From Piscinibacter aquaticus (lineage in GTDB: Bacteria; Pseudomonadota; Gammaproteobacteria; Burkholderiales; Burkholderiaceae_C), in NCBI GenBank assembly GCA_007994965.1, contig VOPW01000001.1, forward strand, positions 1 to 64,000: a stretch of DNA of 64,000 nt, in the 5' to 3' direction. The notes below the pieces were generated by a model, which searched no databases, was not told the DNA's origin, and worked only from the letters and a program-made list of their open reading frames with translations. How positions within the stretch are numbered: position 1 is the first letter of the stretch; each line of letters begins with the position of its first letter. The position numbers and the translations under genes are program-made. Shown here in pieces: positions 1-61,830 of the stretch.

Positions 1-1044
1 CATCTGGCCGTACTCGCTGCGGTTGCGGGTGATGTAGTGCTCGCCGGTGGCAGCGCTGCGCTCGGCCACCTTGCGCGCCAGCAGCGAGTAGTGGCGGGCG
101 AACAGGCTGCGGATGCCGCGCCGCGCCTGCGCCTGCTGGGCCAGCTCGGCGATCAGGCGCAGCAGCTCGCGGCCGGGCTGCGGCGCCAGCAACGTGTTGA
201 GCAGGGCCTCGATGCGGTCGCAGCGCGCGTGCAGCTGGTCGACCTCGAAGACGATGTCCACCGACACGCCGTATGCCTCGAGGTGCGTGCGCACGCTGGC
301 CGCGGCGCGCCGGCAGGCGTCGAGCAGCGCACGCAGGTACTGCGCCTCCTGCAGCAGCGCGGCGTTCTCGCCGGCGCGCGCGCGCTCGCCGAGGCGCTCG
401 GCCGCACTGGCGAGCTGGCGGAACGGATCGTCGGCGAGCAGCTCGGCGCTGATGCGCTGACGCAGCGCGGCGGAATGCCCCGAGGCGCGCACCGCGGCGG
501 CCGGGTAGGCAATGCCGTCGATCAGCGGCTCGCGCCATTCGCGGCCTTGCGCGAACACCGGGCCGAGCGCCTCGACGAGGCGCGCGAGCGTGTCGTCGTC
601 GATCGCCGCCAGCCACTGCGCGTCGCGTTCACTGGGGAAGAAGAGGGCGAACAGTTCGCCGAGGTCCTGCGTCTCCGGCGTGATCGGCAGCAGGCGCAGG
701 CGCAGCCGCTGGCCGAGCTCGCCGAAGAAGTTCATGCGCGGCGAGAAGCCGAAATCGGCGAACAGCGCCACGGTGTCGACCTCGCGCCAGAAGCGCGCGA
801 GCAGCGCGCCGACCGCGAGGCGGTGCGGCTCGTGGCGCTGCAGCACGTTGAGCAGGTGCTTCAGCCGCAGCACCGGCAGCGGCGTGCTGCGCTCGGCGGC
901 CTCGTCCAGTGGCGCGCGGCGCAGCCACTCCATCAGGCGCACCAGCCACAGCTGCCGCTCGGCCAGCGAGGCGCGCGGGTCGGCTGCGTTGAGCAGGGCG
1001 GTGAGGTCCCAGCCCGAGCCGGCGCGCGAGGGCGAGGCGCTCAA
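1..1044 (-). CDS. gcr: Site-specific recombinase, Gcr family (C-terminal part outside window)
   Basis: The minus strand reads without a stop from a TTG start at 1044 to the window edge, giving about 348 residues. The stretch GEHYITRNRSEYGQM near the end of the visible part matches the conserved GEHYI-(T/A)-R-(D/N)-R-x-EY motif of the Gcr-type recombinases (COG4389), large membrane-associated proteins of beta- and gammaproteobacteria whose function is poorly established. The TTG start overlaps the apaG stop (TTGA), so the two genes are translationally coupled. The protein begins with a helical, Arg/Leu-rich region. Only the N-terminal half is visible. A long open frame on the opposite strand is a G+C-driven shadow. 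Confidence 0.8.
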   Translation of the reverse strand, partial: MSASPSRAGSGWDLTALLNAADPRASLAERQLWLVRLMEWLRRAPLDEAAERSTPLPVLRLKHLLNVLQRHEPHRLAVGALLARFWREVDTVALFADFGFSPRMNFFGELGQRLRLRLLPITPETQDLGELFALFFPSERDAQWLAAIDDDTLARLVEALGPVFAQGREWREPLIDGIAYPAAAVRASGHSAALRQRISAELLADDPFRQLASAAERLGERARAGENAALLQEAQYLRALLDACRRAAASVRTHLEAYGVSVDIVFEVDQLHARCDRIEALLNTLLAPQPGRELLRLIAELAQQAQARRGIRSLFARHYSLLARKVAERSAATGEHYITRNRSEYGQM

Positions 1045-1424
1045 TGCAGCGACGAGGCGGTGGTCAGCCCGAACTCGGGCACCGGCGAATCGAAGGGATG
1101 CGCATCCTCCGTCATGCAGAAGAAGGTGCCGCGCATCGTGCCGTGCGGCGCGCGGATGCGCGTCCAGCTGGTGTACTCGAAGCTCTCGCCGGGCTTGAGC
1201 AGCGGCTGGTGGCCGACCACCGCGAGGCCGCGGACCTCCTCGGTGTGGCCCTCGGCATCGGTGATGACCCAGTGCCGCGCGATCAGCTGTGCGGTCACGT
1301 CGCCGGTGTTGCGGATGGTGATCGTGTAGGCGAAGGCATGCTCGCCGCTGGCCGGGTCGGACTGCTCGGGCAGCGGCCGCACCACGACGGTGTTGGTGAA
1401 CTCGGGTCGTGACATCAGGCGCAT
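1041..1424 (-). CDS. apaG: ApaG protein
   Basis: The product is 127 residues, close to the usual 124-127 for ApaG. It is a single ApaG/FxpA fibronectin-like beta-sandwich domain. The family signature is visible: FAYTITIRNTG near residue 30, then ARHWVITD, GEVRGLAVVGHQP-like and FEYTSW, and the run GTMRGTFFCMTEDA near residue 100. ApaG has been linked to cobalt/magnesium resistance and ApaH function in enterics, but its biochemical role is unclear. A second in-frame ATG at 1415 gives a start typical of the family (MSRPEF) and may be the true one. It is divergent from rpe and coupled to the downstream recombinase gene, an arrangement common in Burkholderiales. Confidence 0.93.
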   Translation of the reverse strand: MRLMSRPEFTNTVVVRPLPEQSDPASGEHAFAYTITIRNTGDVTAQLIARHWVITDAEGHTEEVRGLAVVGHQPLLKPGESFEYTSWTRIRAPHGTMRGTFFCMTEDAHPFDSPVPEFGLTTASSLH

Positions 1425-1471
1425 TCTAGGAGCGCACCTAGAATTCCCTCGATCCCCAGGGCCCTTCCGTC

Positions 1472-2151
1472 ATGACCACCTATCGCATCGCACCCAGCAT
1501 CCTTTCGGCGGACTTCGCACGCCTCGGCGAGGAGGTGCGCGACGTGCTCGCCGCCGGCGCCGACTGGATCCACTTCGACGTGATGGACAACCATTACGTG
1601 CCCAACCTGACCTTCGGCCCGATGGTCTGCGAGGCGCTGCGCAAGCACGCGGTGACGCCCGCGGGTCATCGCGCGCCGATTGACGTGCACCTGATGGTGC
1701 AGCCGGTCGATGCGCTGGCCACTGCCTTCGCCAAGGCCGGTGCCGACCTGGTCAGCTTCCATCCCGAAGCCAGCGCGCATGTCGACCGCACGCTGCAGCT
1801 CATCAAGGCCGAAGGCTGCCGGCCGGCCTGGTGTTCAACCCGGCCACGCCGCTCGATGTGCTCGAGTGGGTGATCGACAAGGTCGACCTGGTGCTGATCA
1901 TGAGCGTCAACCCCGGCTTCGGCGGCCAGAGCTTCATCCCGGCGGCGCTGAAGAAGGTCGAGCGGGCGCGCCAGCTCATCGATGCCAGCGGGCGCGACAT
2001 CCGCCTCGAGGTCGACGGCGGCATCAAGGTCGACAACATCCGCGCGGTGGCCGACGCCGGTGCGGACACCTTCGTGGCCGGCAGCGCGATCTTCGGCCAG
2101 CGCGACTACAAGGCGGTGATCGACGCGATGCGCGCGCGGCTGGCGCGCTGA
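1472..2151 (+). CDS. rpe: Ribulose-phosphate 3-epimerase (one frameshift)
   Basis: This enzyme interconverts D-ribulose 5-phosphate and D-xylulose 5-phosphate in the pentose phosphate pathway. The N-terminal part ([34 protein letters not shown]) and the C-terminal part ([36 protein letters not shown]) contain the catalytic Asp, His and metal ligands of the TIM barrel. They lie in two frames. The break is at 1819-1822, where one missing base (TGCCAGGCC read as TGCCGGCC) restores the family sequence [14 protein letters not shown]. Repaired length is about 226 residues, normal for Rpe. Start ATG 1472. No gph follows, unlike the usual rpe-gph-trpE order. Confidence 0.93.
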
Positions 2152-2153
2152 GC

Positions 2154-2178
2154 GCGCGCCGGCGCCGTCAGCGGCGCT
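2154..2178. terminator. Possible bidirectional hairpin between convergent rpe and chemoreceptor gene
   Basis: The 16 bases between the converging stops and the first codons of the minus-strand gene contain GCGCCG (2162-2167), a TCAG loop and CGGCGC (2172-2177). This is a perfect 6-bp G+C stem. There is no run of T on either side, so it is at best a weak or Rho-assisted terminator. Confidence 0.3.
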
Positions 2179-3690
2179 TGTAGACGCCGCAGCCGAGCAC
2201 CAGGCCGTCTTCCACGGGCTCGACGTACGAGGTCTTGGCAGCCACCTCGCCGGTGACCGGGTTGGCGAAGTCGTAGTCGACCCAGCCACCGCCGCGCGCC
2301 GCGCAGGCGAAGGCGTCGGCCACCAGCTTGTCGCCGTTGACGCCGCGCACCTCGCGCACCGAGGTGCCCACCTTGGCCGCGTTGCCGCCGAACGCGCGGT
2401 AGATGCCGTTGCGGTCGAAGGCGAAGACATACATGTCGCGGTCGGTCCAGGCCGCGGCATCGCCGGTGATCGCCTGCAGCGCCGCCGGCCCGCGCTCGCG
2501 GTACAGCGCCACGGCGCGGCGCACCAGCGCGCTGGCCTCGTCGGCGCTGCCCTGGCGCAGCCGGAAGGCCTGCACCGCGCGGGCGAGGCGATCGGCGCGC
2601 TCGCCCAGCTCGCTCGAGCCATGGCGAGCCTGCTCGACCATCTGCGCGTTGTGCTGCGTGATGCGGTCGAGCTCGAGCACGGCCTGCGAGATCTGCGCGA
2701 GGCCGCTGCTCTGCTGCGAGCTGCTCGCGGCGATGTCGCGCAGGCGGTCGGCCACCTCGCGGATGCCGCCGTGGATCTCGCCGAAGGTGCGGCTGGCGCG
2801 GTCGATCTGCGCCGCGCCCTCGGAGACCCCCGCACCGATTCGCCGATCAGGTTCTTGATCTCGCGCGCCGAGGCGGCGCTGCGCTGCGCCAGCGTGCGCA
2901 CCTCGGCGGCCACCACCGCGAAGCCGCGGCCCTGCTCGCCGGCGCGCGCGGCTTCCACCGCGGCATTGAGCGCCAGGATGTTGGTCTGGAAGGCGATGCC
3001 CTCGATCACGCCGACGATGTCGCTGACGCGGCGCGAGCCGGCCTGGATCTGCTCCATCGAGCGCACCGCATCCTGCACCGCGGCGCCACCGGCCTCGGCC
3101 ACGTCGCGCACGCGAACGGCCAGCGCATCGGCCTGCGCGGCACCCTGCGCGCTGCGCTCGACGGCAGCGGTGAGTTCCTGCACGCTGGCCGAGGTCTGCT
3201 CGAGGTTGGCCGCCTGCGTCTCGGTGCGCTCCGACAGCGCGCGGCTGTCGCTGGCGAGCTGCCCGCCGGCTTGCGCCACCACCGACGAGTTGCTGCGGAT
3301 GTCGGCCACCGTCTCCGACATGCGGCCGGCCAGCGCCTCCAGCGCCTGGCCGATCGCGGCGAGTTCGTCGCGGCCGTTCACGTCGACGCGCGCGGCGAAG
3401 TCGCCTTCGGCCATGCGCGTGACGGCCTGCTGGATCGCGCCGAGCGTGCCCGCCACGGCGTGGAAGAACGCCACGCCGAGCCAGGCCGTCAGCGCCATGG
3501 CCACCAACGCCACGGCCGTGACCACTTCCCGGGCAGCACCGAACTGCAGCGCGACGAGCAGCGCGGCCAGCGGCAGCAGGCTGCTCGCGCCAAGCATCGC
3601 CAGGCGCGAAGCCATGCTCATCGAGCGCATCAGCGAGACGGCGGGCCTCAGCGGCCAGGAACTGCGGTGATCGTTCGTCACTTCGGTCAT
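2168..3690 (-). CDS. Methyl-accepting chemotaxis protein with C-terminal Cache domain (one frameshift)
   Basis: The product is about 507 residues. Two hydrophobic segments near residues 25-65 are separated by only a few residues, so there is almost no periplasmic loop. A HAMP-like region ([19 protein letters not shown]) and a full MCP signalling domain follow, with the hairpin tip [33 protein letters not shown]. After it comes about 120 residues resembling a single Cache domain ([25 protein letters not shown], then [15 protein letters not shown] and GLVLGCGVY), which would lie in the cytoplasm. The frame breaks at 2827-2831 in a G run. ATG 3690 follows a GAGGAG stretch, but the spacing is short and later starts are possible. 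It lies 100 bp behind napF on the same strand, suggesting a role in nitrate or redox taxis (inference). Confidence 0.88.
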
Positions 3691-3793
3691 CTCCTCGAGG
3701 GTCAAATCGCACTTTGGAACTGTGCGGTCCACGCTTTTCGACCGAGGGCGCAGGAACTGTAGGGGGTATTCCCCGCGGCCAATCGGGACATGT

Positions 3794-4286
3794 TCAGCGC
3801 AGCGTGATGGCCGTGACCGGACACACGCTGACGCAGTCGCCGCAGCCGGTGCAGGCGGCGGCTTCGACGGCCAGCGAAGCGATGCCGCCGGGGGCGGGCC
3901 GGAAGCGCAGCGCGCGCGTCGCAGGCATCGCCGCAGACACGGCACTCGACGCCGCGGCGGTTCAGGCAGGTGTCCGAAACGACCACGCGCCAGAGGAAGG
4001 GCTGCGGTGAGGCCTTGCGATCGAGGGCCCCGGTCGGGCAGGCGGTCTCGCACGCGCCGCACAGGCTGCAGCCCGCCGCATCGAAGCGGATCTGCACGAA
4101 GCCGCCGTCGCCGGCGTGCAGCACGCCCGTCGGGCAGGCGCGCACGCAATCGCCGCAGCGTGTGCAGCGCGCGGTGAACTGCGCATCCGGCCGCAGGGAC
4201 CAAGGCGGCCGCGGCGCCGTCGTGACGTCCTGCGCACTCGCCTCGGCGAGCCTTCCTCGAAGAAATGACCTGCGACGCGGATCCAT
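3794..4286 (-). CDS. napF: NapF, 4Fe-4S ferredoxin-type protein of nitrate reductase assembly (one frameshift)
   Basis: NapF is a cytoplasmic iron-sulfur protein thought to help load the NapA cluster before Tat export. The protein begins [13 protein letters not shown], like other NapF proteins. It carries [24 protein letters not shown] and a third [12 protein letters not shown] cluster motif, plus the Cys-rich stretch [18 protein letters not shown]. The frame breaks at 3910-3918 in a GC dinucleotide run. Reading through restores [13 protein letters not shown] and a normal end at 3794, about 164 residues. Unlike the usual napFDAGHBC order, this gene is transcribed away from napD, so the 100-bp gap holds promoters for both directions. 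Confidence 0.88.
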
Positions 4287-4316
4287 CGGTGGCCTGAACG
4301 CTGGGGGGTATCCGGG

Positions 4317-4330
4317 TTGACGACCGTCAA
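4317..4330. promoter_or_regulatory. FNR/Anr/Dnr-type binding site between napF and napD
   Basis: TTGAC-GACC-GTCAA is a perfect inverted repeat of the form TTGAY-N4-RTCAA recognised by CRP/FNR-family regulators of anaerobic or nitric-oxide-responsive genes. It lies 57 bp before the napD start and 31 bp before the napF start on the other strand, where it could serve both promoters. The neighbouring GGGGGTAT (4304-4312) resembles a NarL/NarP heptamer, which is weaker evidence. Confidence 0.75.
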
Positions 4331-4386
4331 GCATGCACCGGTGTGGCGCCTGCACAGTGCGGCCTCGTCAAGAGCCGGAGTCGTTG

Positions 4387-4727
4387 GTGAGCATTCTCGG
4401 GGCAGTCGTGCGGGTCCGTCCGCAGCATCTGGAAGTCGTCGTGCCGCGCATGTCGGCCCTGCCGGGGCTCGACCTCGCACTCAACCCCGGCGATGGCCGG
4501 CTGGTGCTGGTGCTGGAAGACGCCGAGCGCGAGGGCCAGTGCACAGCGCCGCTGCCACGCTCGCGGCCATCGCGATGTGGCCCGAGGTGCTCGACACCTC
4601 GCTGGTCTACGAGTACTCGGGCCCCGATGCGCCGCCTGCTGGATCGGGCGCGGTCGAGGACTACCGCGCCTGGCGCGGCAGCCTGAAGGACTGGGCCGGC
4701 GAGGGCGCCCCGCCGGGGAAATCTTGA
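4387..4727 (+). CDS. napD: NapD, NapA signal-peptide chaperone (one frameshift)
   Basis: NapD binds the twin-arginine signal peptide of NapA and delays export until the cofactor is inserted. The recognisable core is [37 protein letters not shown] and, in the next frame, [24 protein letters not shown]. The frame breaks at 4537-4540. Adding one G (GGCCAGGTGC for GGCCAGTGC) joins them. The GTG start at 4387 is chosen because GGAG lies at 4377-4380 with proper spacing; TTG 4384 is an alternative. The repaired protein is about 113 residues, with a C-terminal tail of about 30 residues beyond the usual NapD fold. Confidence 0.85.
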
Positions 4728-4827
4728 ACTCCTTCAACGACAAGACCCTGCTGCTTCCGCAGGATTGAACCGAACACCACCGATCGATGTGAGCCCGGGC
4801 GCCTTCGCGCCGCATGGAGAACCGAAG

Positions 4828-7376
4828 ATGCAAGCCAACCGCCGTGACTTCCTCAAGACCCAGGCCCTGACGGCCAGTGCCGCTGCGGCCGGCATCCCGT
4901 TCACCGCGATCGCTGCGCCCGCGCCGGCGTCGGCGCCGAGCGATTCCGCCGTGCGCTGGGACAAGGCGCCGTGCCGCTTCTGCGGCACAGGCTGCGCGGT
5001 GATGGTCGGCGTGCAGGACGGCCGCGTGGTCGCCACGCAGGGCGATCCGGAAGCGCCGGTGAACCGCGGCCTGAACTGCATCAAGGGCTACTTCCTGTCC
5101 AAGATCATGTACGGCAAGGACCGCCTGACCACGCCGCTGATGCGCAAGAAGGACGGCAAGTACGACAAGAACGGCGAGTTCGTGCCGGTCAGCTGGGACG
5201 AGGCCTTCGACCTGATGGCCACGAAGTGGAAGGAGACGCTGAAGACCGATGGCCCGGCAGGCGTCGGCATGTTCGGCTCCGGCCAGTGGACCATCTACGA
5301 AGGCTACGCGGCCGCGAAGCTGTGGAAGGCGGGCTTCCGATCCAACAACATCGACCCGAATGCGCGGCATTGCATGGCCAGCGCGGTGACCGGCTTCATG
5401 CGCACCTTCGGCATCGACGAGCCGATGGGCTGCTACGACGACATCGAGCAGGCCGATGCCTTCGTGCTGTGGGGCTCCAACATGGCCGAGATGCACCCGG
5501 TGCTGTGGAGCCGCATCACCGACCGGCGCCTGTCCAACCCGAACACCAAGGTGGTGGTGCTCTCCACCTTCGAGCACCGCAGCTTCGACCTGGCCGACAT
5601 GGGGATGATCTTCACCCCGCAGACCGACCTCGCGATCCTCAACTACATCGCCAATTACCTGATCACCAACAAGAAGGTCGACATGGACTTCGTGAAGAAG
5701 CATGTCAACTTCAAGAAGGGTGCCGACGACATCGGCTACGGCCTGCGCCCGGCGCACGCGCTGGAGAAGGACGCCAAGAGCAACGGCTACCCCGGCGCCG
5801 ACGGCAAGCCCAAGGGCAACCCGAACGACTCGACGCCGAGCACGTTCGAGGAGTACGCGAAGTTCGTCTCGGAATACACCGCGGAGAAGGTCAGCAAGCT
5901 CTCCGGCGTGCCCGTCAAGCAGCTGGAAGACTGGCGAAGATCTACGCCGACCCGAAGGTCAAGGTGATGTCGCTGTGGACGATGGGCTTCAACCAGCACA
6001 CGCGCGGCACCTGGGCCAACAACATGGTCTACAACATCCACCTGCTGACCGGCAAGATCAGCCAGCCGGGCAACAGCCCGTTCTCGCTGACCGGCCAGCC
6101 CAGCGCCTGCGGCACCGCGCGCGAGGTGGGCACCTTCGCGCACCGGCTGCCGGCCGACATGGTGGTCACCAACCCCGAGCACCGCAAGCACACCGAGGAG
6201 ATCTGGGGCCTGCCCGAGGGCACCATCCCCGACAAGATCGGCCTGCACGCCGTGGCGCAGAGCCGCGCGCTGAAGGACGGCAAGCTCAAGTGCTACTGGA
6301 CCAGCACCACCAACAACATGCAGGCCGGGCCGAACATCAACGGCGAGATCCTGCCCGGCTGGCGCAACCCGGCCACCTTCGTGGTGGTGAGCGACGCCTA
6401 CCCGACGGTCAGTGCGATGGCCGCCGACCTGATCCTGCCCGCGGCGATGTGGGTCGAGAAGGAAGGCGCCTTCGGCAACGCCGAGCGCCGCACGCAGGTG
6501 TGGCGCCAGCAGGTCAATGCGCCGGGCCGTGCCAAGAGCGACCTGTGGCAGTACATCGAGTTCAGCAAGCGCTTCAAGGTCGAGGAAGTGTGGCCGGCCG
6601 AGCTGATCGCGAAGAAGCCCGAGCTCAAGGGCAAGACGCTGTTCGAGGTGCTCTACAGGAACGGCAAGGTCAACAAGTTCCCGCTGGCTGACCTCACCAA
6701 GGTCAACGGCAAGTACATCAAGGACTACAGCAACCCGGAGAGCAAGGAGCTCGGCTTCTACCTGCAGAAGGGCCTGTTCGAGGAGTACGCCGAATTCGGC
6801 CGCGGCCACGGCCATGATCTCGCGCCCTTCGACACCTACCAGGAGGTGCGCGGCCTGCGCTGGCCGGTGGTCGACGGCAAGGAGACGCTGTGGCGCTTCC
6901 GCGAGGGCTACGACCCGTACGTGAAGAAGGGCGAGGGCCTGCGCTTCTACGGCTTCAAGGACGGCAAGGCCAACATCTTCGCGCTGCCCTACCAGCCCGC
7001 GGCCGAGAGCCCGGACAAGGACTACGACCTGTGGCTGTGCACCGGCCGCGTGCTCGAGCACTGGCACACCGGCTCGATGACGCGCCGCGTCGGCGAGCTG
7101 CACCGCGCGGTGCCCGAGGCGGTGGTCTTCATGCACCCGGACGACGCGAAGGACCGCGGCATCCAGCGCGGCATGCAGGTCAAGCTGGCCTCGCGCCGCG
7201 GCGAGATCACCGCGCACGTCGAGACCAAGGGCCGCAACAAGGTGCCGCGCGGTCTCGTGTTCATCCCCTTCTTCGACGAAGGCCGGCTGGTCAACAAGCT
7301 CACGCTCGACGCCACCTGCCCGATCTCGAAGGAGACGGACTTCAAGAAGTGCGCCGTCAAGGTGGTTCGCGCCTGA
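4828..7376 (+). CDS. napA: Periplasmic nitrate reductase catalytic subunit (one frameshift)
   Basis: NapA reduces nitrate to nitrite in the periplasm using a bis-molybdopterin guanine dinucleotide cofactor and one 4Fe-4S cluster. The start at ATG 4828 gives a twin-arginine signal (NRRDFLK at residues 4-10) followed by an Ala-rich segment. Cluster cysteines are C49, C52, C56 and C84. The molybdenum-ligating cysteine lies in [10 protein letters not shown] at residue 182. The frame breaks at 5931: one missing C (GACCTGG read as GACTGG) restores QLEDLAKIYAD. Repaired length is about 850 residues, longer than the E. coli 828, partly owing to a Lys/Asp-rich insert near residues 320-345. It is followed within 22 bp by napG. 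Confidence 0.96.
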
Positions 7377-15415: not shown

Positions 15416-17074
15416 ATGACCGCGATCCCCCTCGAAGGCGACACGACGCCCGCCCCCGTGCGCCCTGCTGCCGGACCCGATGCCGGCTTCTTCGCCCACC
15501 ATGGCCTGTGGGCCCCCGGCGTGCGGCTGTTTCGTCGGCTGCGCTTCAGTGCCAAGGCCGCGATCATCTCGCTGGCCTTCGTCGTGCCGCTGCTCGGCCT
15601 GATCGGCTGGCAGCTGATGCACCAGGCGGAGCTGTCGCTGCAGGCGCGGCAGGACTCGACCCGCCAGCACGTCGAGATCGCCCACGGCATCGTCGTCTGG
15701 GCCCATGCGCAGGAAACCAGCGGCAAGATGGACCGCGCCCAGGCGCAGCAGCTCGCCCGCAGCGCGATCGCCGCGCTGCGCTACGAGGGCAGCGAATATT
15801 TCTGGATCAACGACATGCAGCCGCGTGTCGTGATGCACCCGATCAAGCCGGAGCTCGACGGCAAGGACGTCGCCGACGTGAAGGATCCGAACGGCTTCCC
15901 GCTGTTCCAGGCCTTCGTCGCAAAGGTGCGCGAGAGCGGCAAGGGCTTCGTCGCCTACCAGTGGCCCAAGCCGGGCAGCAGCGCGCCGGTGGACAAGATC
16001 TCCTACGTGCAGGGCTTCGAGCCCTGGGGCTGGGTGATCGGCTCGGGCATCTACATCGGCGACCTGCGCGAAGCCACGATGCGCCAGCTGCTGATGGACA
16101 GCGGCATCGTCGCGGGCGCATTGCTGCTGGCCGGCTATCTCTTCCTGAGCTTCTACCGCGTGATGGATGGCGGCCTGAAGGAGACGCGCCGCCACTTGCG
16201 CGCGATGACCTCGGGCGACCTGACCACCTCGCCGTCGCCATGGGGCCATGACGAGGCGGCACAGCTGATGCTCGAGCTGCGCGCGATGCAGGATTCGCTG
16301 CGCCAGATGGTGCTGCGCGTGCGCCGCTCCAGCGACGAGATCGTGCACTCGAGCAGCGAGATCGCCAGCGGCGCGATGGATCTCTCCGCGCGCACCGAGC
16401 AGGCCGCTGCCAACCTGGAGGAATCGGCCGCGTCGATGGAGCAGATCGGCTCGACGGTGAAGAGCAGCTCCGACAACACCGCCGAGGCGGCGCGCGTGGC
16501 CGAGCACAATGCCGGGCTGGCTGGCGATGGCGGCCGGGTGATGCGCGACGTGGTGCAGACCATGGAGAGCATCCGCGAATCGTCGGCGCGCATCGCCGAC
16601 ATCATCGGCACGATCGACGGCATCGCCTTCCAGACCAACATCCTGGCGCTCAACGCCGCGGTCGAAGCCGCGCGCGCCGGCGAGCAGGGCCGCGGCTTCG
16701 CGGTGGTGGCCGGCGAGGTGCGCACGCTGGCGCAGCGCTCGGCCACCGCGGCGCGCGAGATCCGCGGCCTGATCGGCCGCAGCGTCGAGCAGGTGGAAGC
16801 CGGTACCGGCACCGTGCACCGCGCCGGCACGACGATGGAGGAGATCGTCGCCGCCTCGCAGCGCGTCAGCCAGCTGCTGGCCGAGGTGGCCAGCGGTGCG
16901 CGCGAGCAGAGCCTGGGCATCGCGCAGATCGGCGCGGCCGTGCAGGAGCTCGACCGCATGACACAGCAGAACGCCACGCTGGTGGAGCAGACCGCGGCCG
17001 CCTCCGGTGCGATGAAGCGCCAGGCCGAGGGCACGGCCGCCGAGGTGGCGCGCTTCCGGCTGCCCGGCACCTGA
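15416..17074 (+). CDS. Methyl-accepting chemotaxis protein with periplasmic Cache domain
   Basis: The 552-residue product is an intact receptor. A first transmembrane helix (about residues 45-65) is followed by a periplasmic single-Cache domain. It contains [36 protein letters not shown] and [10 protein letters not shown]. Then come a second helix (about residues 225-245), a HAMP region, and the MCP signalling domain with the tip [27 protein letters not shown]. Receptors with this Cache type often sense small organic acids, but the ligand cannot be read from sequence. ATG 15416 is preferred over an in-frame TTG at 15341. There is no C-terminal CheR-tethering pentapeptide. It is one of few longer genes here without a frame break. 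Confidence 0.93.
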
Positions 17075-54751: not shown

Positions 54752-56983
54752 TCAGTAGGGGCGGAAGTTGGCCGTGCCGGTGGCCAGCCGGGTGGGCGTG
54801 CCGGGCACCGGCTGCGGGCGGGTGCTGCGCATCGGGGTGTTCGGCGCACGGCGCTCGATGAAGGCCTCGGAGCGCGCGCCGCCGGCGGCGAAGAAGGCCA
54901 CCGACTGCTGCAGCTGCTCGGCGGCCGGAGAGCTCCTCCGATGTGGCGGCGAGCTCCTCGGAGGCCGAGGCGTTCTGCTGCGTGGCCTTGCTCAGCTGGC
55001 CCATCGCGCCGCCGATCTGCGTGACCGACTGGCTCTGCTCGGTGCTCGCCGCGGCGATCTCCTGCACCAGCTCGCTGGTCTTCTGGATCGACGGCACGAT
55101 CTCGTCGAGCAGCCGGCCGGCGCGCTCGGCGGTGGAGACGCTGGAGGCGGCCGGTCGCCGATCTCCTTGGCCGCTTCCTGGCTGCGCTCGGCGAGCTTGC
55201 GCACTTCGGCCGCCACCACCGCGAAGCCCTTGCCGTGCTCGCCGGCGCGGGCGGCCTCGATGGCCGCGTTCAACGCCAGCAGGTTGGTCTGGTAGGCGAT
55301 GTCGTCGACGATGGAGATCTTGGCGGCGATCTGCTTCATCGCGGTGACGGTCTGGGTGACGGCGGTGCCGCCCTCGGCGGCCTCCTTGCTGGCCTTGGTG
55401 GCCATGCCGTCGGTGACCTTGGCGTTGTCGCTGTTCTGCGAGATCGAGGCCGACATCATGTCGATCTGCGAGGTGGTCTCCTCCACCGACGAGGCCTGCT
55501 CGCTGGCCGCCTGCGACAGTGACTGCGCGGTGGCGCTGACCTGCGTGGCCGCGCCGGTCAGCGCGTCAGCGGCGCTGCGAACCTCGGTGATGATGGTCGA
55601 CAGCTTGTCCAGGCTGCCGTTGGCGTCCTGCTTGACCTGCTCGAACACCCCCTGCATCTGCCGCGTGATGCGCTGCGTCAGGTCGCCCGCGGCCATGCCG
55701 GAGAACACGCGTCCGACGTCCTCGATGATGGCCGACAGCGACTCGCTGGTGGCGTTGGCGTCGTCCTTCACGCGGCCGAACACGCCGGCGAAGTCGCGCG
55801 TCACGCGCTGCGAGAGATCGCCCGCCGCCAGGGCGCCGAACACGCGCCCGAAGTCGCCGAAGATCACCGAGGTGGTCTCCATCAGCGTGTTCACACCGCC
55901 GCACAGCTCGGCGATCGGCCCGCTCTTGCCCTCCAGCGGAATGCGCTGCTCGAGATCGCCGGCACGCGCCGCCTCGGTCACCCGCTGCGCACGGCCGACG
56001 GCCTCGTCCAGCATGCGGCTGGTCTGCACTTGCGCGGTGATGTCGGTGGCGAACTTGACGACCTTGAACGGGCGGCCGGCGCGGTCGAAGATCGGGTTGT
56101 AGGTGGCCTGGATCCAGATCTCGCGGCCGCCCTTGGCGATGCGGCGGTACTGGCCGGTGTCGAACTCGCCGCGAGCGAGCTTCTCCCAGAAGAGCCGGTA
56201 CTCCACGCTGTTGCGGAACTCCGGGTCGACGAACAGGCTGTGGTGCTGGCCCTTGATCTCGGCCAGCGAGTAGCCGAGCGCCGCCAGGAAATTGTCGTTC
56301 GCGTTCAGGATCTTGCCGTCGAGCGTGAATTCGATGACCGCCTGCGCCTTGTGCACCGCCTGGATCTGGCCCTCGTGGTCGGCCGCCTGAAGCTGCGCGC
56401 GCGTCACGTCGGTGGCGATCTTGACGATCTTGCACACGGCACCGCCTTCGTCCCTCACCGGAGCGTAGACCGCCTGGATCCACACCTCCTGGCCGGACTT
56501 GGTGAGGCGCTTGAACACGCGGCTGTTCGACTGGCCGGCGTTCAGCTCGGCCCAGAAGCGCACGTAGTCGGGCGAGGCTGCGTCGGCCGGATCGACGAAC
56601 ATGCGGTGGTGGCGGCCGACCACTTCCTCGCGGGCGTAGCCCATCAGGCCGAGGAAGTTCGCGTTCGCGGCCAGCACGTGGCCGGTGGTGTCGAACTCGA
56701 TGCTGGCGTAGGCCTCGTCGACGGCGCCCAGCAGGCCGCGCGAATTCACCTGCTCGGCGGTCAGCGCGTCGATGCGTCGGCGCGCTTCGCCCCGTTCTGC
56801 CTCGGCGGCGGCTTCCAGCGCGGTGTGGCGCGCGCGTGCGTCGGCCAGGGCAGCGGCCAGCGCGCCGCGCTCGCCCTCGAGGCGGGCGCGCTCGCGCTCC
56901 AGCTCGGCCAGCTGTTTCGCCGCATGTTCCAGTTCGCTGCCGGCGAACATCAGGGCCATCAGGGAAGGACGGGGTGCATTCAT
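54752..56983 (-). CDS. Soluble methyl-accepting chemotaxis protein with two PAS domains (two frame breaks)
   Basis: The protein of about 744 residues starts with a coiled coil (residues 15-80). Two tandem PAS/PAC domains of the Aer-like type follow ([22 protein letters not shown] near 108; [22 protein letters not shown] near 230), both lacking a membrane anchor. Two HAMP-like repeats come next. The signalling domain has the tip [32 protein letters not shown]. Breaks are at 55152-55154 (CCTGG read as CCGG) and 54924-54926 (CCAGG losing two bases). It ends GTANFRPY. It probably senses cytoplasmic redox or energy state, but heme or FAD binding cannot be read from sequence. Confidence 0.9.
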
Positions 56984-60791: not shown

Positions 60792-61830
60792 TCAGAAGAA
60801 CGTGGTATCGCCGGCGGTGACGCTGGCCGCTGCCGCGGAGGGGCTGGAGGCGGCGTGCTGCTCGGCGGTGGTGTAGCCGGCGCACAGCAGGGCGCGCCAC
60901 TCGTCGGCATCGGGAGGCGAACCGCCCTCGAGTGCGGCGCGCTGGCGCGCCGAGGCGGCGCGCATCGAGTCGCACACCGGTCGAGGATCTGGTTGACGCG
61001 GTCCTGGAACTGGAAGGCGATCATCAGCTGCTCGACCTGCCCGCGCACCGTCTCGCCGCGGGCGCGCAGCTGTGCGGCGCGCTGATTGAGCTGCTCCACG
61101 GCGCCGTCGACGTCGCTGATGACTTCGTGGATGGTCGTGCGCGAGCGCTCGATGCTTGCGGCGTCGCGCACGCCGTGGCCGTCGGCACGGGCCAGCACGC
61201 CCGTCATGTGCTCGCCGAACTGATGGACTGGTCGGCGATGCGTCGTCCGGTCTGGCCCGATTCACCGGAGAGGCGGCGCACCTCGGCCGCCACGACCGCG
61301 AAGCCGCGGCCGCTCTCGCCGGCGCGGGCAGCCTCGATCGCCGCGTTGATGGACAGCAGGTTGGTCTGGCGCGCGAGCTTGCCCACGTCCTCTGCCATGT
61401 CGACGAGGACGCGCGAGCTCCCGGCGAGTTCTCGCACCGAGCCGAGCATCTCCTCGCGGGCGTGCACCGAATCGTGCAGGCCACTCAGCAACTCCTGAAG
61501 CCGCTGCTCGCAGCGGGCCAGCACGGCAGCGCGCGCATCGAGGGTGGGCGGGGTCACGACGCTCTCGACGCTCGGGGCGATGATCTGGTCCAGCTCGGCG
61601 AGGATGGCGGTGAAGCCGTCCAACAGGCTGGCCGTGGCCTCGCGCATCTGCGACTGTGCCGTGCCGATGTGGGTGGTCCACAGCGCGGTCGCCTCGTCGA
61701 AGCGTTCAGCGTGGGCGTGCGCGGCCGGCGTGGCGACCGACTTCGATGACTGCCCGCGGCGGAGCAGGCGCTCGAGCCACTGCGGCCAGCGGCCGCGGGG
61801 CGCCGAATGGGAGGCGAGGGCGGAGCTCAT
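60792..61830 (-). CDS. Receptor-like chemotaxis protein with CheZ-like C-terminal motif (two frameshifts)
   Basis: The protein of about 347 residues has no membrane segment. The first half includes a compact MCP-like signalling helix pair ([60 protein letters not shown]). The second half is a long helix ([45 protein letters not shown]). [10 protein letters not shown] resembles the D-x-x-x-Q active-site motif of CheZ. It ends in AGDTTFF. Breaks are at 61227-61229 (CCAGG read as CCAG) and 60977-60979 (CCAGG read as CCGG). It is the first gene of the operon and directly upstream of cheY; the cluster has no separate cheZ. Confidence 0.8.

Follow-up and report, generated by a model that had tools for sequence, protein, structure and literature searches.

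Chemoreceptors (MCPs) in which a Cache domain sits at the C-terminus, i.e., after the signaling domain, are a conserved family. Here, we describe a member encoded by Piscinibacter aquaticus within the first 64,000 nt of contig VOPW01000001.1, the whole stretch of DNA analyzed, which we refer to as “the window”. The protein consists of a membrane hairpin, a HAMP domain, an MCP signaling domain, and an sCache_2 domain, in that order and with a fixed spacing between signaling domain and Cache across most of the family. Its closest relatives carry an additional, NIT-type domain, and in its own clade the gene is linked to genes for nitrate respiration. We see an even chance that it is a membrane-anchored receptor that senses a small acid in the cytoplasm and directs metabolic taxis, tied in this species to nitrate respiration. 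Sensing of a cytoplasmic acid is the best reading of the data, and we favor it over a Cache domain that binds nitrate.

The receptor gene and its reading frame

The gene runs on the reverse strand from an ATG at position 3690 to a stop codon at 2170–2168, the extent given by the sequence-only reading from which this analysis started (Table 1). In this assembly, the gene lacks an intact frame and is split into two. The first piece (283 residues) contains the membrane hairpin, HAMP, and the first part of the MCP signaling domain; the second (224 residues) contains the remainder of the signaling domain, followed by sCache_2. The genes of relatives are intact, and the broken frame is probably a property of the assembly rather than of the family. 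Three other genes in the first 6 kb of the window, rpe, napF, and napA, likewise change frame, and the genome, assembled in three contigs, is rated 77% complete. Given the breaks in neighboring genes and this level of completeness, a sequencing indel is the likely cause of the break near 2840. The receptor aligns with 31 relatives through to a shared C-terminal end, and the repaired frame therefore has no earlier stop. Taken as a whole, positions 1–6000 of the window, with breaks in rpe, the receptor, napF, and napA, show the pattern that uncorrected indels leave in an assembly.

Table 1. Features of the receptor gene and its neighbors (window positions)
Feature	Position	Strand	Basis
rpe-like gene, frame-broken, convergent with receptor	1472..2151	+	Frames
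Chemoreceptor gene with C-terminal sCache_2, one frameshift	2168..3690	-	Frames, Pfam, alignment
C-terminal sCache_2 domain	2171..2554	-	PF17200 41.3 bits, cut-off 25; Cache fold
Conserved linker LRQGSADEA, signaling helix to Cache	2534..2560	-	Alignment; inter-helix break in model at residues 96–99 of C-terminal piece
MCP signaling domain, in two frames	2657..3120	-	PF00015 in both pieces
Frame break, approximate place (near 2840)	2830..2842	-	Frames; relatives unbroken across same region
HAMP domain, matched part	3319..3444	-	PF00672, 38.7 bits, cut-off 25
Second membrane helix of hairpin, residues about 59–81	3448..3516	-	Hydropathy, split by eye
First membrane helix of hairpin, residues about 27–53	3532..3612	-	Hydropathy, split by eye
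napF, frame-broken	3795..4289	-	TIGR00402 103.2 bits, cut-off 102.2, on 3930–4289; low end by eye
napA, frame-broken, divergent from napF and receptor	4828..7376	+	First 379 aa against NapA models; end from second frame

Membrane anchor, signaling domain, and position of the Cache

Overlapping hydrophobic windows cover residues 27–81; by eye, we divide this region into two helices separated by about five residues. The hairpin with almost no periplasmic loop that had been proposed from the sequence is thus borne out by hydropathy, with the split between helices placed by eye. The Pfam HAMP match covers residues 83–124, from which the end of HAMP is extrapolated to about residue 126. Both pieces match the signaling domain above the cut-off of 34.6 bits (126.7 bits for the first, 35.1 bits for the second), and the conserved tip is present, placing the protein among the MCPs. 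The canonical layout of a Cache chemoreceptor, with the Cache between the transmembrane helices and before the signaling domain, is not the one found here: the Cache is C-terminal and the hairpin loop is minimal.

The tip glutamate, residue 252, follows the end of HAMP by about 126 residues and, counting the missing base, precedes the linker by about 128. Because these two distances are nearly equal, the Cache should lie close to the cytoplasmic face of the membrane, at roughly the height where HAMP ends, a position that reflects geometry rather than a measured contact. The frame with the C-terminal piece (row L015) has no predicted transmembrane stretch, and topology indicates that the Cache should be cytoplasmic. 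Domain search, structure model, topology, and conservation together back the original proposal of a cytoplasmic Cache that follows the signaling helix.

The Cache domain, its linker, and its pocket

The C-terminal region scores above the cut-off for PF17200 and adopts a PAS-like Cache fold in the model, settling the question of whether it is Cache-like. An artefact or chance pairing of domains is ruled out by these above-cut-off Pfam matches and by 46 other rows that have an MCP plus Cache. We used 31 relatives to model the C-terminal piece (mean pLDDT 85.9; mostly >90 in the Cache part). The model has a helix at residues 2–95, a break at 96–99, and the Cache from 100 onward. At the junction (residues 81–100) pLDDT is only 67–73, which leaves it uncertain how the Cache is oriented relative to the coiled coil. 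The nearest folds (Foldseek E 5e-7 to 2e-5) are the sCache receptor domains 4exo/2qhk, TlpB (3ub6), PscD (5g4y), and Adeh_3718 (4k08), the last matching with Z 12.9 and 3.1 A over 120 residues.

The linker, of the QG[ST]ADEA type, has some substitutions and a constant length in 32 aligned rows. Located by motif, ALNAA and the linker have a spacing of 140 in 39 of 47 rows; the spacing is also 140 in L074, with a variant motif, and reads 141 in the window, with a placeholder residue X. Two rows, L072 and L097, have a spacing of 152 and are taken to be a longer receptor class, and the four rows without the spacing motif (L101, L103, L104, L125) have other linkers.

In PscD, propionate is contacted by Tyr90, His103, Tyr143, and Lys156, between two tryptophans, according to the part of the report that deals with the site (PMC5062169); the like residues hold acetate in Adeh_3718 (PMC3831638, likewise in part). 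In our alignment of 47 C-terminal Caches, the equivalents of Tyr90, Tyr143, and Lys156 are found in 44, 43, and 47 rows, respectively, and a late cysteine is kept in 43. The window Cache keeps these three of the four carboxylate contacts. The pocket positions are among the best-kept of the domain. The His103 position is Phe in 36 of the 47 rows and His in six; it is Phe in the window and in 10 of 10 rows of the window clade. The first PscD tryptophan is replaced by Phe in 41 of the 47 rows and the second mostly by Ile or Phe, such that both sandwiching tryptophans are gone, except in one row at one position. The conserved Tyr/Tyr/Lys set suggests that the ligand is a small acid or anion held in an altered pocket; with His103 changed to Phe and the tryptophan pair replaced, the pocket may be occupied by a different ligand, or by no ligand at all.

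The last possibility would make the Cache a structural or docking module, e.g., one that clamps the dimer next to HAMP or one on which another protein docks. The lost histidine and tryptophans would fit such a role, as would the location of the domain about level with HAMP. There is also a parallel in Helicobacter pylori TlpD, whose extra PAS domain lacks an evident pocket and may have a mechanical role, as described in part of PMC12871147. We nevertheless consider a Cache without ligand unlikely, given how well the tyrosines, the lysine, and the late cysteine are kept.

Distribution of the family

Using the Cache part as the query, we searched 60 genomes, comprising the window's own and 59 relatives, and found matches in 28. 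Reading the frames of these matches, an MCP followed by a C-terminal Cache is present in 22 of the 60 genomes (the window's own included), with 21 among the 36 genomes within the family and one among the 24 elsewhere in the order. In the remaining matches, the Cache either stands alone or precedes other domains. A profile of the whole junction matches in at least 15 of 300 genomes of the order (E 1e-15) and at least 10 of 398 genomes of the phylum (E 1e-20), in draws that share genomes; these counts are lower bounds because 9–12 candidates were scored per genome. Among the at least 10 phylum matches, one, in G470, lies outside the order, and it starts at profile position 5. A plasmid collection gave five matches at 30–40% identity; for two, the gene carries the name “cache domain-containing protein”. 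All receptors were gathered with the Cache as bait, meaning that loss of the Cache in place would be missed.

Neighboring genes and nitrate respiration

In the window, napF lies about 100 bases upstream of the receptor in the same direction. Over its first 379 aa, the divergent napA matches NapA models with E-values of at most 7e-187; being partial, these matches fall below the curated cut-offs. On the other side is an rpe-like gene, which we take to be rpe from our own reading, and a like neighbor is present in G001 and G003. In these two genomes, as in the window, the receptor adjoins nap. In G002, G004, and G005, two NarK-family transporters (TIGR00886 matches with E 2e-61 to 1e-81, which stay below the curated cut-off) are encoded divergently from the receptor and followed by nar genes, with NarG above cut-off in L209 and L210 and NarH in L208; no napA match was found in these three genomes at E 1e-60. 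Hence, all six same-genus members of the clade have nitrate genes beside the receptor, in two placements (nap or narK-narG). In the ~4 kb flanks of the clade's other rows (L045–L048), nothing matches nap, NarK, NarG, or NarH. A search of 48 receptor loci, together with the entire window, for NarK, NarG, and NarH gave matches in L051, L052, and L053 only. The window's genome has no match to the clade NarK at E 1e-60, and none to NarG at E 1e-20, the latter in a search without a positive control.

Two further observations concern loci of this clade. At positions 249–1912 of L045, next to the receptor, are a gene for an MNIO-family bufferin maturase and a DUF2063 gene. Next to L051, a receiver-domain gene was confirmed, and a LuxR-type regulator proposed by eye matched 0 families in the chosen frame.

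Outside the window clade, the picture is different. The receptors of two genomes of the same genus, G006 and G007, belong to another clade and have napA or narK on other contigs; napA is on a contig other than that of the receptor in G006, G023, and G034. Across the 60 genomes, the receptor is present in 22 and napA in 15, with both in six, against 5.5 expected. Linkage to napF as a general rule is therefore ruled out: nap is adjacent only in the window, G001, and G003, and only six of the 22 receptor genomes have napA. The linkage in these three genomes is one inherited place, not three events. It is the nar linkage in G002, G004, and G005 that restores the nitrate idea for the window clade. 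The linkage to nitrate respiration is real but confined to that clade.

The sister clade (16 rows) has other neighbors. A convergent phaZ is present in 14 of the 16 rows (one copy run: TIGR01849, 573.5 bits, cut-off 300.75), and in seven of the 16 the receptor is preceded, on the same strand, by a biotin carboxylase with a propionyl-CoA carboxylase BT domain and by a VOC protein. The one VOC copy run scored 44.5 bits against methylmalonyl-CoA epimerase, below the cut-off of 114.95. Among 30 VOC loci (of 36 matches), an MCP occurs within 1.5 kb in G021, G009, and G019 only, in each case with a Cache. In this phaZ/pccA clade, nap and nar queries found nothing in about 6 kb on each side, and the Cache has the same pocket residues. 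Shared neighbors may reflect plain inheritance of place.

Two forms of the receptor

The family has a long form, with ~270–290 residues between the membrane helices, and a short form, with a bare hairpin. The nine closest relatives of the window protein are long and have a NIT-type domain in this position. The window protein has none, with hydropathy indicating a hairpin that leaves no room for one, and its genome has no match to NIT (PF08376) at E 0.01. Scanned singly, the long insert matches PF08376 in two of 18 rows (best E 1.8e-5). In L053, the insert covers the whole domain at 29.5 bits against a cut-off of 24.9; the NIT kinship of the other rows rests on a profile–profile comparison with 17 NIT sequences (99.4% probability, E 5.5e-22, 228 columns). 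With the sequence profile of the NIT-type domain, no solved NIT structure was found. Of two arginines that align with arginines invariant among the NIT sequences, one is found in 17 of the 18 rows and the other in 16, and all nine long rows of the window clade have both. Nitrate binding by such arginines would be by analogy with NasR (PMC8199190, seen in part). In PA4520, however, the NIT domain did not bind nitrate or nitrite, as stated in a part of PMC6381276, so the presence of a NIT domain is no proof of nitrate binding.

In a first tree (47 rows), the short protein of the window groups with the nine long ones (97/99). In a second tree (44 rows; 23 long and 21 short, with L090 and L103 classed as short by hydropathy and L095, L096, L099, L100, and L120 as long by open-frame length), the long/short label changes seven times (6–8 in bootstraps), and the starred branches force at least two changes. 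No starred set held the window protein, and the drawn root passes next to its group. The second tree omits L083, which is cut, and the long-branched L125 and L101; L049, from the same contig as L054, is in neither tree. Two of the nine long relatives, L054 and L055, occupy the same place between rpe and napF, and long and short forms alternate at the pccA-VOC place too. Since both forms are found at the same places, the outside domain has been lost or gained in place; the trees are silent on direction.

An alternative reading is that the Cache itself binds nitrate or nitrite inside the cell, replacing the missing NIT domain. Members of the clade beside nap or narK-narG genes, nearest relatives with a NIT-type domain, and a conserved lysine and two tyrosines that could hold an anion would all agree with such a role. 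However, the same residues are kept in the phaZ/pccA clade, with no nap or nar match in about 6 kb on each side, the receptor and napA are not associated at the genome level among the 60 genomes, and the linkage to napF amounts to a single inherited place. Moreover, we know of no Cache shown to bind nitrate. We judge a nitrate-binding Cache decidedly unlikely. The earlier suggestion that linkage to napF points to sensing of nitrate, nitrite, or a respiratory intermediate therefore stands in part. It is backed by the clade's linkage to nap (three genomes) and narK-narG (three genomes) and by the NIT-type domain of nine relatives; where nitrate is taken as what the Cache binds, it is not backed by the window protein, which lacks NIT, the domain of nitrate type, and has carboxylate-type residues in its Cache pocket, by the same Cache beside phaZ and propionyl-CoA-type genes, or by the co-occurrence with napA, which is at chance. 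In short, gene context gives the nitrate interpretation partial support, and for nitrate as the Cache ligand the case is weak.

It is very improbable that the gene is a decayed NIT-type receptor, i.e., a pseudogene with its outside sensor lost and a real frame break: the window protein lacks the long insert of the nine other clade rows and its frame is indeed broken, but so are the frames of rpe, napF, and napA, the short hairpin form has an intact frame in other genera, and the Cache, linker, and signaling tip are well kept.

Origin of the C-terminal Cache

In a tree of 88 Cache domains (129 columns; L083 left out), in which deep forks are weak, C-terminal Caches form a main group of 40 rows (100/99) and two smaller ones, with at least two label changes needed to account for the starred branches. 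The C-terminal Caches have stand-alone ones as neighbors, with one fork uniting 45 C-terminal and 21 stand-alone rows (91/83). The five N-terminal receptor Caches in the tree form their own group together with L012 (100/98), whose “solo” label comes from frame length alone and which may be a receptor. The nearest kin of the C-terminal Cache thus appear to be stand-alone Cache proteins, with modest deep support.

Several other Cache and MCP genes were seen along the way. The window also encodes an ordinary chemoreceptor (15641–16963, + strand), with an N-terminal sCache_2 (152.2 bits) followed by an MCP signaling domain, which lends itself to comparison with the C-terminal form. Further signaling-domain matches lie at 54987–55405 and 61231–61455 (both − strand), the first in two pieces in different open frames, as in the receptor described here. 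Five frames of 295–390 aa (L111, L112, L127, L131, L134) have a tandem sCache_2 pair, the second at the end, and four of these frames have a predicted hydrophobic stretch close to their start. Small frames of 153–180 aa contain one sCache_2 and little else (L078, L082, L102, L105–L108, L121–L123, L126, L128–L130), even though Cache is said, in part of PMC4822843, to occur exclusively with output domains.

A possible mechanism

We propose that the receptor would be anchored by its hairpin, with no sizeable domain outside. The signaling domain would run to the tip and back, and the returning helix would enter the sCache_2 domain near the end of HAMP via a short linker of fixed length. There, a small acid from the cytoplasm would bind to the Cache, and a short carboxylate or similar anion that serves as a readout of metabolic state is the most likely candidate. 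The ligand-bound Cache could shift the region of HAMP and the methylation helices, which would change CheA output and give rise to metabolic (energy-type) taxis. Relatives in the clade with a NIT domain would be two-input receptors, with the window species having the inner input only.

More tentatively, this may extend to the family as a whole. Its members would have two inputs, a NIT-type domain outside and a Cache inside by HAMP, of which the outer is shed or gained in place and the inner stays. The gene would sit beside the species' nap or nar genes in the window clade, taxis would be coupled to acid metabolism, and the Cache would have been recruited more than once from stand-alone Caches. 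We hold this wider picture to be possible, and well short of probable.

If cytoplasmic sensing is correct, the conserved, inner C-terminal Cache implies that the domain works inside the cell too, and warns that a Cache domain match alone does not mean an extracellular sensor. Nitrate-respiring Burkholderiales would gain a receptor with an internal signal, and intact proteins would be available for separating inside from outside inputs.

Comparison with known systems

Cache domains are described as principally extracellular, with two small intracellular families, in the portion of PMC4822843 that treats their location. At least 17 types of ligand-binding domain (LBD) are fused C-terminally to chemoreceptors, according to the main account in PMC7390727. 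The window receptor resembles that subfamily in that a sensor-type domain sits after the signaling domain, as a C-terminal extension, a comparison made with the article apart from its supplementary list of types. No paper came up in phrase searches that qualified Cache as C-terminal, cytoplasmic, cytosolic, or intracellular; a search for “C-terminal LBD” with sCache found PMC7390727 only, and wider searches gave no title on a C-terminal Cache receptor. Thus, C-terminal LBDs on chemoreceptors are already known as a class, and we found no description of the C-terminal Cache type.

Among individual systems, NIT-domain receptors (PF08376) are similar to the nine nearest relatives, and differ from the window protein in having a NIT domain. 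PscD of Pseudomonas syringae and other sCache_2 receptors share with the window protein the domain family, the fold, and the equivalents of Tyr90, Tyr143, and Lys156. However, the Cache of PscD (a protein absent from our Cache tree) is periplasmic and precedes the signaling domain, and its His103 and tryptophan pair differ. H. pylori TlpD and other receptors with a C-terminal CZB domain, as presented in part of PMC12871147, also have a cytoplasmic sensor after the signaling domain, away from the kinase-binding tip. By contrast, the window sensor is a Cache rather than a zinc-binding, helical CZB, a domain absent from its Pfam matches up to E 1, and the window receptor has a membrane hairpin and HAMP. 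Escherichia coli Aer has a membrane hairpin without a sizeable periplasmic domain, and its FAD-PAS domain is N-terminal. The window receptor is like Aer, which uses a cytosolic, PAS-type sensor for energy taxis (PMC6381276, in the part on Aer), and unlike Aer in that its sensor is C-terminal and belongs to the Cache family.
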